Shown piece by piece: positions 38 to 39,585 of a DNA stretch of 64,000 nt. Position 1 is the first letter of the stretch; every line of letters starts with the position of its first letter. The notes beneath the pieces were generated by a model, which ran no database searches, was not told the origin of the DNA, and worked only from the letters and a program-made list of their open reading frames with translations. The stretch is from Methylophilaceae bacterium (GTDB lineage Bacteria; Pseudomonadota; Gammaproteobacteria; Burkholderiales; Methylophilaceae): positions 1 through 64,000 of the forward strand of contig JAFMCB010000002.1 of assembly GCA_017858095.1 (NCBI GenBank), given 5' to 3'. The position numbers and the translations under genes were made by a program.

Positions 38-66
38 ATAAAAAAAGCCCAAATATCGCTTGGGCA
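38..66 (-). terminator. Rho-independent terminator (minus strand)
   Basis: Minus strand GCCCAA-GCGATAT-TTGGGC followed by TTTTTTT; no minus-strand CDS feeds into it. Confidence 0.8.
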
Positions 67-104
67 AAGCGGCAATAGTTGAACAGGAGGAAATAACTAT
101 TACA
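40..104 (-). ncRNA. Candidate ~62-65 nt sRNA with CCUCCU-exposing 5' hairpin, ECF-type promoter and intrinsic terminator
   Basis: Hairpin AATAGTT-ATTTCCTCCTGTTC-AACTATT (arms 95-101 and 74-80), then terminator 47-65; promoter-like GGCCTGAC-N16-CGTCTACTT immediately upstream on the minus strand. Confidence 0.6.
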
Positions 105-107
105 ACC

Positions 108-140
108 AAGTAGACGGGCCCATTTAATTTTAGTCAGGCC
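108..140 (-). promoter_or_regulatory. ECF-type promoter P2 (divergent, towards candidate sRNA)
   Basis: Minus strand GGCCTGAC-N16-CGTCTACTT; same motif and spacing as P1. Confidence 0.65.
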
Positions 141-169
141 TGACAAATTTTGTATTATTGCGTCTACTT
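137..169 (+). promoter_or_regulatory. ECF-type promoter P1 (autoregulatory, upstream of sigma gene)
   Basis: GGCCTGAC-AAATTTTGTATTATTG-CGTCTACTT; -35 is half of the perfect palindrome GTCAGGCCTGAC (133-144); SD AAGGAGGAA and ATG follow. Confidence 0.65.
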
Positions 170-186
170 TTGTAAGGAGGAAGATC

Positions 187-762
187 ATGTGGCAGCAGGA
201 ATGTTTTGTGCTTTTGAAAAGTCCGTCCAAAAATGATCAGACAAAAGGTATCAATATTTTATATAAAAATATGAGCCAGTCTTTTAAAGGCTTTTTGTTT
301 AATCAAAAATTTACAAAAGAACAAACAGAGGAAGTGCTTCAAGAGGCGTTTATTAAAATTATTAAAAATTTTAAAGCAGTAAAAAATGAGACCTCCTTTG
401 AGGCATGGTGTTGGCAAATTTTACGAAACAGTAAAAATGATTATTTGCGTGAAATTAAGAAAAATAGAAGCGCAATGACTGTTAATGAAATAGAAAATGT
501 TGAAGATAGTGAAATGACAAAAAACATACAACAAACTGTATTTGACCAATCTATAGATGATTGTGTTGCATTAGGCATTCAAAAGTTTAATGCAGCAGAC
601 CCTGATCGTGGCTATGCCATCCTGCTGCAAATGGATGGCTACGCAATAAAAGATATTGCAATGAGAATAGATAGAACACCTGCAGCAACTAAAGAATTTC
701 TGCGTCAAGTAAGAATTAAATTAGCACCCTTTATTAAACATTGTTTAGATATTATTGAATGA
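187..762 (+). CDS. ECF-like RNA polymerase sigma factor (sigma-70 region 2/4 type)
   Basis: 191 aa; region-2-like 'EVLQEAFIKIIKNF...FEAWCWQILRNSKNDYLRE', C-terminal HTH-like 'MDGYAIKDIAMRIDRTPAATKEFLRQVRIKL'; overlaps next ORF by 4 nt. Confidence 0.75.
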   Translation: MWQQECFVLLKSPSKNDQTKGINILYKNMSQSFKGFLFNQKFTKEQTEEVLQEAFIKIIKNFKAVKNETSFEAWCWQILRNSKNDYLREIKKNRSAMTVNEIENVEDSEMTKNIQQTVFDQSIDDCVALGIQKFNAADPDRGYAILLQMDGYAIKDIAMRIDRTPAATKEFLRQVRIKLAPFIKHCLDIIE

Positions 763-1451
763 AAAAAATTAATATAGACGACGCATGGCTTCAAATTATT
801 CGTGGAGATGTAATTACTGCCATGGATAATAAATGGCGCCTGCAGGCAAGATTAGTTAGAGCGGCCCTTAGCAAAGAAAAAAGCCGAATGGAGCAATTTA
901 AGATAGATGATAGTAAGGTGCTTTTTAATATTCATCAGGCATGTGGCACAAAAAATAAGAATTCCGCAATAGTCACCCATTTTTCAAAATGGATTGGCAT
1001 ACTAGTTTTAGGAAGCGGCATTGTGTATGCAACAAAAACCTTGCTTCATTTTACAGAGTTTCAAGAAACTACCATTATAAGCGAATCAGCTGATGCAACT
1101 ATTAATGTTATTACCAATGATAAAAAAGGCTTCTGGAGTGAATGGTTTGATTCTTCCGGTGGCTTTATAGGTTTTTGGTCTAAGTTACAATTGCAGCACT
1201 ATGACCAAGTCATAGATACTCAAAACAGTAATTGTTCACCAAGTAATTTAATTTTTAGTGATTGTTTACAATTAGCTAAGCAAAATAATGCCAATGCACA
1301 ATTCAATGTTGCACTAATGTATGAACAAGGTATTCAAATTGATCAAAATTATGAGAAAGCCTTTGAGTGGTATAAAAAGTCTGCTGCATTAGGTAATTCT
1401 CAAGCACAATTTAATATGGATTATTTAATAGAAAAAAAATTAATTCATTAA
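759..1451 (+). CDS. Single-TM protein with periplasmic Sel1-repeat tail; putative anti-sigma factor
   Basis: Coupled to sigma ORF; ~75-aa N-terminal cytoplasmic part, TM 'WIGILVLGSGIVYATKTLLHF', C-terminal Sel1 repeats 'ANAQFNVALMYEQGIQIDQNYEKAFEWYKKSAALGNSQAQFN'. Confidence 0.65.
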   Translation: MKKINIDDAWLQIIRGDVITAMDNKWRLQARLVRAALSKEKSRMEQFKIDDSKVLFNIHQACGTKNKNSAIVTHFSKWIGILVLGSGIVYATKTLLHFTEFQETTIISESADATINVITNDKKGFWSEWFDSSGGFIGFWSKLQLQHYDQVIDTQNSNCSPSNLIFSDCLQLAKQNNANAQFNVALMYEQGIQIDQNYEKAFEWYKKSAALGNSQAQFNMDYLIEKKLIH

Positions 1452-1514: not shown

Positions 1515-2759
1515 ATGAAAATAAAAAAAATATCATGTATTTTGAGCTCCTTATTTTTTATTACAACCAGTAACGCAGGTGATACATGCTTACAGCAGAA
1601 TTTTTGGGATATCTGGTTTAATCAAGGAAGCTTTAAGGGGTTTGGCCTACCTCCATCAGAGACACAAATCCAGAAAGCTCAAGTTGAACTAGCTGAAAAT
1701 TACTATCTTGGTGACAGAATAGCTAAGAATTATAAAAGTGCATACGATTTATTTTTAAGAGCCTCCAAAGGAGATTTAACCCAAGCAAATTTTAGACTCG
1801 GTCTCATGAATCATTATGGTCAGGGAAAAGAAAAAGATTTAATTAAGGCATTTGATCATTATCAGTTAGCGGCAAATCAAAATGATAATGAAGCTCAATT
1901 TAATTTAGCATTAATGTATCGCTATGGATTAGGGATAGAGAAAAATTTAACAGAAGCTTACCATTGGTTTTACCGCTCAGCTGCTTCAGAAGAGATGAAG
2001 GCTGTTGACGCCTGTTTTGAAGCAAAATCAACAGTACCAGAGGCACAATTTAATTTAGCCCAAATGTATCACTATGGCTTTGGCACAAAAAAAGATGTTA
2101 AAAAAGCATTTAACTGGTATGAAAAAGCCGCGCAGAATAATTTAAAAGAAGCTCAATTTAATTTTGCAAAATTAATTCTCACTGGAGAAGCAGCAGATTA
2201 TCATTTTGATATCGCTATTGAAAATTATCGGTTAGCGGCCAAGCAAGGCTTGCTTGAGGCGCAATTAAATTTAGCACAACTTTACCACTACGGGCCAAGC
2301 TATTTTCAAAATTTCAAAAAAGCATTTAAATGGTACCAGGCAGCGGCAAATCAAGGATCAAACGAGGCAATTTTTAATTTAGCTTTAATGCAGCAATATG
2401 GTAGAGGAACAATACAAAATCATATTTCTGCGAAAAATTATTATCACCAAATTGAGGAAAAAAATATTCCAGAAGTATATGTTAATTTAGGATTTATCTA
2501 TCATTACGGTTTGGGTACACCTGTTAATGATCAGAAAGCTAAAAGTTATTTTGAAAAAGCCTCCAAGCATAAATTTGGCGAAGCCGATTTTCATCTCGGA
2601 ATAATTTATCGGGATGGCCGCGGCGTGGCAAAGAATTTAGTTCTTGCGGACTCTTTTTTTCAAATGGCAAATGAAAAAGGGATTTATGAGGCAAAAGAAA
2701 TTATAAAGACACTTGCTTTGCGTGAGTCTGATGATATCAATTTGTTTGAGGCGCCATAA
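1515..2759 (+). CDS. Secreted Sel1-repeat protein
   Basis: Signal peptide MKIKKISCILSSLFFITTSNAG and multiple Sel1 repeats (A-FNLA-MY-YG-G); start moved from 1485 to ATG 1515 because 1485 lies inside P3. Confidence 0.8.
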   Translation: MKIKKISCILSSLFFITTSNAGDTCLQQNFWDIWFNQGSFKGFGLPPSETQIQKAQVELAENYYLGDRIAKNYKSAYDLFLRASKGDLTQANFRLGLMNHYGQGKEKDLIKAFDHYQLAANQNDNEAQFNLALMYRYGLGIEKNLTEAYHWFYRSAASEEMKAVDACFEAKSTVPEAQFNLAQMYHYGFGTKKDVKKAFNWYEKAAQNNLKEAQFNFAKLILTGEAADYHFDIAIENYRLAAKQGLLEAQLNLAQLYHYGPSYFQNFKKAFKWYQAAANQGSNEAIFNLALMQQYGRGTIQNHISAKNYYHQIEEKNIPEVYVNLGFIYHYGLGTPVNDQKAKSYFEKASKHKFGEADFHLGIIYRDGRGVAKNLVLADSFFQMANEKGIYEAKEIIKTLALRESDDINLFEAP

Positions 2760-23880: not shown

Positions 23881-24261
23881 ATGGCTAAAATAAATCAAAA
23901 TTCGTTTAAAGGGAAAAAAGGATTAACAAGAATTATTAATGCTTTTGCTTTTTCAATGGCAGGATTTTATGCCGCTTTTAAAAATGAACATGCATTTAGA
24001 CAAGAAATTTTTTTAGCACTAATTCTAATTCCATTAGGTGCTTTGATTGGTGAGAGTCCTATGCAAAAATCATTGTTGGTTTCTAGTATATTTTTAGTAC
24101 TTATTGTTGAACTAATTAATTCAGGAATTGAAGCTACCATTGATCGCATTTCACTTAAAAAAAATGAATTAGCTAAACGTGCAAAAGATATAGCAAGTGC
24201 CGCTGTTTTTCTCACAATCATGAATGCTATTATTACTTGGATTATTATCTTATTTTTTTAA
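23881..24261 (+). CDS. dgkA: Diacylglycerol kinase
   Basis: GLTRIINAFAFSMAGFYAAFKNEHAFRQE; ELINSGIEATIDR. Confidence 0.9.
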   Translation: MAKINQNSFKGKKGLTRIINAFAFSMAGFYAAFKNEHAFRQEIFLALILIPLGALIGESPMQKSLLVSSIFLVLIVELINSGIEATIDRISLKKNELAKRAKDIASAAVFLTIMNAIITWIIILFF

Positions 24262-24515
24262 TGATTTAGATATTTGCCCATAGTAATAATTGTTCTTCCA
24301 TCGTGAGATTGTATTAGGTATGAGTTGCTGTGATCAATCAAATATAGCAACTCTTCTTGTTTAAGATGATCTTTGAGCGCTTGTATTGTTTTAAGCTTGA
24401 AATAGCGCAAATAACCACGATGGTTTATTTTTTTTCTGGCACCGTATCTAAGCAAAGCATGTTGAATAATCTCTGGAATATCTTGCACCTGACAGGCTAG
24501 TTCTTTTTTCATCAT
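24258..24515 (-). CDS. Uncharacterised ~85-aa protein (candidate ECF regulon member)
   Basis: MMKKELACQVQDIPEIIQHALLRYGARKKINHRGYLRYFKLKTIQALKDHLKQ...; SD AGGAG just upstream of 24515/24512; P4 motif upstream. Confidence 0.6.
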   Translation of the reverse strand: MMKKELACQVQDIPEIIQHALLRYGARKKINHRGYLRYFKLKTIQALKDHLKQEELLYLIDHSNSYLIQSHDGRTIITMGKYLNH

Positions 24516-24596
24516 TTCTCCTAAAAAGGTGGCTAGTTTTCGCACTAGCCCTGCGAAGAAAGGAATTCTTAGGGGAATAATTACCTTGTCTTAATA

Positions 24597-24629
24597 ATTC
24601 AGACGTTAAATTATTATTTTTGTCAGGAT
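24597..24629 (-). promoter_or_regulatory. ECF-type promoter P4 upstream of 85-aa protein
   Basis: Minus strand ATCCTGAC-AAAAATAATAATTTAA-CGTCTGAAT; 16-bp spacing as in P1-P3. Confidence 0.55.
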
Positions 24630-39346: not shown

Positions 39347-39373
39347 TTAATTTTCGTAGGAGCAAAAAATTTT

Positions 39374-39448
39374 TGCTTTCCTACGGTGGGATGACCCACA
39401 TCAGGTTCGAAGGGTATCTCTCACTATTTTTTTAAATAGACCCCTAGC
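39374..39448 (-). promoter_or_regulatory. TPP riboswitch (THI element) in thiC leader
   Basis: Minus strand AGGGGTCT...GTGAGAGATACCCTTCGAACCTGATGTGGGTCATCCCACCGTAGGAAAGC. Confidence 0.9.
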
Positions 39449-39585
39449 ATTATGAGTTTTAAATTACTTTATTCTCTTTCATTAGGCAAGTAATATCGCG
39501 GGTTTTTTGAATTTTTTCTAGCGCAAATAATCAATAAGACAGGATATCTTCGATATAATAGGCAATTCAAGTAAAGTAACTCAAT

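Follow-up and report, generated by a model that had tools for sequence, protein, structure and literature searches.

The sigma factor locus and its predicted divergent promoters

The stretch of DNA analysed here, called the window throughout, comprises 64,000 nucleotides (C30:1-64000, beginning at the contig end) of a genome, G000, of which 1.15 Mb are available (89% complete). Named records within the same Methylophilaceae genus include strain KB13, LSUCC0665, LSUCC0717 and other Methylophilaceae, and we take the genus to be the OM43-type group of marine methylotrophs. These streamlined bacteria have genomes of about 1.3 Mb. No description of small RNAs from OM43 was found in the literature searched, and a comparative survey of 104 motifs does not mention the group. 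Elsewhere in the window, a TPP riboswitch is present at 39361-39455 on the minus strand (71 bits).

The left end of the window contains a sigma factor operon on the plus strand and a promoter motif facing away from it:

111-138, minus strand: ECF-type promoter predicted for the RNA described below (-35 CCTGAC at 138-133, 16-nt spacer, -10 CGTCTA at 116-111; motif search)
139-166, plus strand: divergent ECF-type promoter predicted for the sigma operon (motif; mirror-image copy facing the sigma gene)
187-762, plus strand: ECF sigma factor gene, whose product is the proposed activator of the RNA (Sigma70_r2; NCBIfam sigma models below cut-off)
759-1451, plus strand: probable membrane anti-sigma factor with Sel1 repeat (overlaps the sigma stop; hydrophobic segment; Sel1; order kept in relatives)
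1515-2759, plus strand: secreted Sel1-repeat protein of the same cluster (Sel1, 7 stretches; conserved neighbour)

A divergent promoter had been proposed from the sequence alone, and a promoter-like CCTGAC-N16-CGTC indeed lies 13 nt ahead of the RNA, diverging from the ECF sigma operon. The palindrome GTCAGGCCTGAC is common to the -35 boxes of both promoters. In the window the motif has three matches where 0.09 are expected, and the exact motif occurs six times in the window genome: three copies belong to the sigma operon, the window RNA and a second element, and the other three lead to no element. Judged by the motif directly upstream of it, the window RNA would be ECF-sigma-dependent.

The association between motif and element is constant in the genus. 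The sigma motif is found ahead of all 21 well-scored elements, with 9-10 of the 10 motif positions kept in 20 of them; random 60-nt windows score 9 positions in about 1% of cases. The exception is the nearest relative, G020, whose promoter is degenerate (7/10 positions). Thirteen elements lie directly behind the motif, and in 12 of these the distance from the start of the -10 box to the first base of the hairpin H1 is 12-15 nt, which suggests that the RNA starts at or next to this hairpin. The remaining eight elements are located about 300 nt behind the motif with a small gene, gene X, in between.

Homologues of the sigma factor across the genus share the same intergenic RNA; they were retrieved with an alignment as query, the sigma protein alone giving none. 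G029 (L060) has its sigma gene broken into two frames and carries degenerate element copies. A sequence resembling a Fur box (minus-strand reading GAAAATGATAATGATTCGC) is located at 4-33, immediately beyond the 3´ end of the RNA, and is conserved as TGTGTTAYTGCGAATCATTATCATT in G000, G020, G025, G015 and G030. It is possibly an iron-responsive promoter that reads antisense through the RNA into the sigma gene.

Structure of the window RNA

The RNA itself occupies the minus strand:

42-103, minus strand: structured RNA element (matched by the covariance model; its 5´ end is probably at or adjoining 103)
72-103, minus strand: hairpin H1 (103-95 pairs with 80-72, loop 94-81 = AUUUCCUCCUGUUC; fold and family covariation)
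47-71, minus strand: probable H-type pseudoknot (S1 and S2 pairing in the family)
40-46, minus strand: U7 run making S2 an intrinsic-terminator-like end (clear in the window genome)

Read from 103 in 5´ to 3´ direction, the layout is GUAAUAGUU-AUUUCCUCCUGUUC-AACUAUUGC-CGCUUU-GCCCA-AGCG-AUAUU-UGGGC-UUUUUUU. The sequence-only reading had described a CCUCCU-loop hairpin followed by a terminator with seven U at 104-40, and these coordinates are correct, as are the 14-nt loop, the 8 nt that follow the 7-bp stem and the seven U (46-40). The H1 stem can be extended from 7 to 9 bp by G103-C72 and U102-G73, and the anti-Shine-Dalgarno (anti-SD) sequence CCUCCU (90-85) is located in its loop. Folding this region with RNAfold, the check proposed in that reading, gave -15.4 kcal/mol compared with a shuffled mean of -8.5 (z = -3.1), and only one of 200 shuffled sequences folded equally well.

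The second part of the element has a pairing that had previously gone unnoticed. Positions 71-68 (CGCU) can pair with 60-57 (AGCG), which lie within the loop of the presumed terminator, forming a helix S1 with the core CGC/GCG. Its 5´ strand (C71 G70 C69 U68, opposite A60 G59 C58 G57) adjoins H1 directly. Together with S2, formed by 65-61 and 51-47 (GCCCA/UGGGC), and loops at 67-66 (2 nt) and 56-52, the 3´ part of the element is probably an H-type pseudoknot.

The strong terminator with seven U, another claim of the sequence-only reading, is real in the window copy but is not a feature of the RNA family. In the first 400 nucleotides of the window it is the one terminator-like site (0.2 expected), and, as had been claimed, no credible minus-strand open reading frame accounts for it; the single frame crossing it is an open-ended TTG frame of 76 amino acids. 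U residues directly follow the S2 stem in G000 and, weakly or half-present, in G020, whereas other copies continue with GCCACCU and are then loosely U-rich. In the proposed check on homologues, hairpin, CCUCCU loop and second stem are kept at the homologous loci, the canonical terminator is not, and the second stem is better described as part of a pseudoknot.

Conservation and covariation

Two covariance models were used. The seed model R1 was built from an alignment of 12 trimmed elements (98.4% of cells paired, 9 of 16 pairs changed on both sides) and scores the window element with 68.9 bits (E 3e-12 per genome). Model R2 was built from 10 related elements, omitting the window genome and its nearest relative. 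Its two best matches in the 64-kb window are the element at 103-42 on the minus strand (44.6 bits, E 2.5e-8) and a second copy (E 1.4e-8), while the next best match has an E value of 0.36.

With R1 at E <= 0.01, 18 of the 31 genomes in the genus gave a match to the element, against none of the 156 Methylophilaceae genomes outside it. Nine R1 matches come from outside the seed, with E values from 4e-14 to 1e-4. A screen of 300 genomes of the order gave, outside the window genome, just two weak matches out of context; their surroundings are unrelated and contain no ECF locus, and we regard them as chance matches. The same applies to a third match in the window genome (G000:C12, E 4.4), which is located inside a coding region, and to a match in G017 (E 0.06). 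None of the 4227 Rfam families matches the element at gathering thresholds, and a relaxed search of four family loci (E <= 1) gave no match either.

In the 22-member alignment 97.1% of the cells are paired and 12 of the 16 pairs have changed on both sides, compared with at most 47% paired cells when the partners are slid by 1-3 columns. The changes concern six of the seven family pairs in H1 and all six in S2. S1 is paired in 97% of the cells but hardly varies, and covariation within the family therefore does not prove it. The CCUCCU loop is among the most conserved parts of the element. Non-Watson-Crick cells in the minus reading comprise 22 G-U and 4 A-C, counts that swap on the opposite strand, and this G-U excess identifies the minus strand of the window as the RNA. 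Loops of 2 and about 5 nt likewise fit an H-type pseudoknot when read on the minus strand but not on the plus strand.

In relatives of the KB13 type (L048, L049, L051, L052 and L054), a divergent RNA of another kind, about 125 nt long, lies upstream of the sigma gene. It consists of a GGAGG/CCUCC hairpin, in which the CCUCC sits in the stem and not in the loop, followed by two H-type pseudoknots. The S1 helices of this RNA change on both sides (C-G to U-A, A-U to G-C and C-G to A-U), with 99.3% of the cells pairing in five sequences from two clusters. Although this sample is small, the compensatory changes provide independent support for the pseudoknot, making it likely.

Hfq is encoded in the window genome. 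It is short and low-scoring (57-60 bits) in the KB13-type genomes with a detected Hfq and in G008 and G011, while most others reach 85-94 bits. The genomes with the short Hfq also lack the window-type RNA, which may reflect phylogeny only.

A second copy and the contexts of the element

The second copy, also absent from the sequence-only reading, is part of a further promoter-linked unit:

24602-24627, minus strand: third ECF-type promoter motif CCTGAC-N16-CGTC (motif search; precedes the second copy)
24527-24590, minus strand: second RNA element, leader of gene X (R1 38.9 bits, E 1.2e-5, outside the seed; R2 45.6 bits, E 1.4e-8)
24258-24512, minus strand: gene X, encoding an 84-aa protein of unknown family; follows the second element

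It has the loop AUUCCCCUAAG, S1 UUCGC/GCGAA and S2 GCUAGU/ACUAGC. Gene X has no significant Pfam match. It was found in 10 of the 31 genomes of the genus, always adjoining an element and behind a sigma promoter; a fragment of it is located on G000:C33.

Four contexts of the element can be distinguished. In the first, the element is free, divergent from sigma and without a gene downstream in sense (G000, G020, G025, G015, G004, G018, G030, G010 and G028). The second is the order promoter, element, gene X (24590-24527 in G000, and G020). In the third, promoter, gene X and element are followed by a VIT/vWA protein and a sortase (G015); a VIT/vWA-like gene is present in G026, and in a variant a 201-aa protein follows the element (G019, G022, G023 and G024). 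In the fourth, promoter, gene X and element precede a further promoter and sigma (G005 and G027). In addition, G029 has an element ahead of a VIT/vWA-like gene without gene X, and in G009 a promoter with its element is located at the end of a contig.

Among the free copies, all nine that score well with the model carry CCUCCU in the loop. In the leader copies the loop varies (CCCCUA, CCCUAU, CUCCUCCUG) but is C-rich throughout. The sequence-only view of a structured RNA behind an ECF-type promoter is supported, but the element is also found in leaders and intercistronic gaps of sigma-regulon mRNAs. A purely trans-acting role does not explain these leader and intercistronic copies. In G015 (L165) the sigma promoter motif precedes gene X, element, VIT/vWA protein and sortase as one predicted unit, and similar genes are present in G026 (L166) and G029 (L167). 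From its gene content, the sigma regulon may handle cell-surface proteins.

Predicted pairing and targets

Pairing of the loop was predicted with RNAduplex against the start regions of 453 genes in G000 (covering about 40% of the genome) and 1184 genes in G015 (about 92%). The start region of the sigma mRNA, where the predicted pairing site is the Shine-Dalgarno (SD) sequence UAAGGAGGAAGAUC, ranks 9th of 453 in G000 (-13.7 kcal/mol), 12th of 1184 in G015 and second among 142 ortholog pairs. Of the further candidates common to both genomes, a small secreted FHPTDALLIGGNGGFNPS-repeat protein ranks 1st and a PII-type protein, named from its sequence, 4th. The secreted FHPTDALLIGGNGGFNPS-repeat protein is encoded around 8222 on the minus strand in G000 (L200) and has no Pfam match.

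The predicted pairing with sigma is partly what any anti-SD would give: a generic 16S anti-SD also ranks sigma first in the ortholog-pair list, although in G015 sigma is 12th for the sRNA loop and 257th for the generic sequence. Across nine genomes the sigma site falls at the 0.7-24% level, and it is weak (10-24%) in G018, G028 and G010. The loops showed no pairing specificity for the sigma SD of their own genome when compared with the sigma SDs of relatives (p = 0.85).

Proposed mechanism and alternative explanations

With modest confidence we favour the interpretation that the element is a sigma-dependent anti-SD RNA that represses translation, with the sigma mRNA plausibly included. The window locus would encode a small non-coding RNA (about 62 nt) as one member of a structured RNA family specific to the genus, and the active ECF sigma factor would transcribe this RNA from the promoter divergent from its own operon. 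The RNA would open with a hairpin exposing UUCCUCCUGU in its loop and close with an H-type pseudoknot, which would cap the transcript and probably also terminate it in the window strain. The loop would pair with strong SD sequences and thereby lower the translation of a set of mRNAs. The mRNA of the sigma factor is plausibly among these, which would result in negative feedback. The sequence-only reading had called the RNA the repressor arm of the ECF response, which is reasonable but unproven; the most repeatable predicted target is the sigma mRNA, and its repression would be feedback rather than a separate arm.

The element might instead be mainly a cis control element of the sigma regulon, with the C-rich loop masking a downstream SD across the pseudoknot until a ligand, a protein or temperature releases it, and with the free copies as derived copies or decoys, as RsmY/Z are for RsmA. 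We consider this main alternative rather unlikely, even though several observations fit it. In the second copy, which forms the leader of gene X, the C-rich stretch is paired with both SD and start codon in the minimum-energy fold. In G000 and G020 UUCCCCUA stands against UAGGAGAA; in G015, G026, G029, G019, G022, G023 and G024 the element ends 15-40 nt ahead of a start codon. However, loop-SD pairing in cis is no better than with shuffled partners (p = 0.23) and the same mismatch occurs in both gene X leaders. Furthermore, nine copies have no downstream gene, and a further promoter stands behind the element in G027 and G005.

Both roles could be combined in one module with two uses in the same sigma regulon, with the free RNA serving as decoy for whatever protein or ligand recognises the pseudoknot in mRNAs. 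Such a sensor-plus-sponge circuit seems to us quite improbable.

Lower still we rate the idea that the element is merely a transcript-end or RNA-stabilising structure (a terminator, RNase barrier or processing site) whose CCUCCU loop has no pairing role. The U7 after S2 in the window copy and the location directly after gene X in eight copies agree with such a role, but it is the loop and not the U run that is conserved, and the free copies begin at their promoter and so have nothing upstream to end. Finally, it is very improbable that the functional unit is the plus strand, as an antisense RNA or long 5´ leader running from the Fur-box-like site into sigma, or a DNA-binding palindrome: the conserved site ahead of the element in five genomes and the CAGGAGGAA displayed on the plus strand, which resembles an SD or CsrA site, would suit it, but G-U pairs and pseudoknot loop lengths fit the minus reading only, and the sigma promoters always point into the CCUCC strand.

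Comparison with known systems

Cuckoo/CcsR RNAs carry C-rich loops. The cuckoo RNAs CcsR1-4 of Rhodobacter sphaeroides have an RpoHI/RpoHII promoter, four tandem copies, a small co-transcribed DUF1127 protein of the CcaF1 type and RNase E processing (CIN1 locus; PMC10253847). The window family resembles them in its alternative-sigma promoter and in having a hairpin RNA adjoining a small protein gene, as in the order promoter, gene X, element. It differs from these alphaproteobacterial RNAs in its single copies, its added pseudoknot and its betaproteobacterial lineage. Tandem copies are absent, with one element per promoter in all genomes; gene X has no significant Pfam match that would make it a DUF1127 partner, and the free window copy has no protein gene in its predicted transcript. 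An intrinsic terminator of the type found at the 3´ end of the cuckoo operon is present in the window genome and non-canonical in most relatives. The comparison with cuckoo RNAs made in the sequence-only reading is an analogy only.

The alpha-r14 sRNA NfeR1 of Sinorhizobium is 123 nt long, with three hairpins that each contain an unpaired CCUCCUCCC, and silences the mRNA of a regulator that controls NfeR1 (PMC10746234). An anti-SD motif in a hairpin loop is common to both RNAs, and feedback on a regulator mRNA is what we propose for the window RNA. Instead of three hairpins, each window-type element has one CCUCCUG hairpin plus the pseudoknot. The window element is thus a member of neither the cuckoo/CcsR nor the alpha-r14 group.

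Similar to the sigma-E sRNAs, an ECF sigma factor of envelope type would drive a short repressing sRNA in an autoregulatory loop. Sigma-E sRNAs pair with omp mRNAs in an Hfq-dependent manner, and the window RNA is unrelated to them in sequence and structure (no Rfam match). H-type pseudoknots are also known from riboswitches such as preQ1 and SAM-II. The leader copies share with these a compact pseudoknot near the SD, but the family has no Rfam match, includes the nine copies without a downstream gene and shows no association with metabolic genes.

Taken together, the element represents a strongly supported, genus-restricted and uncatalogued RNA family of the stress-sigma sRNA type. With very few sigma promoter sites per genome the system is compact, and the entire output of the sigma factor can be listed and tested; in the window genome, the RNA element lies behind two of the three credible sigma sites. 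The family is unusual among the stress-sigma sRNAs in its pseudoknot and in its second place inside regulon mRNAs, and this occurrence both as a free RNA and within mRNAs offers an example of how sRNAs and cis elements might interconvert.
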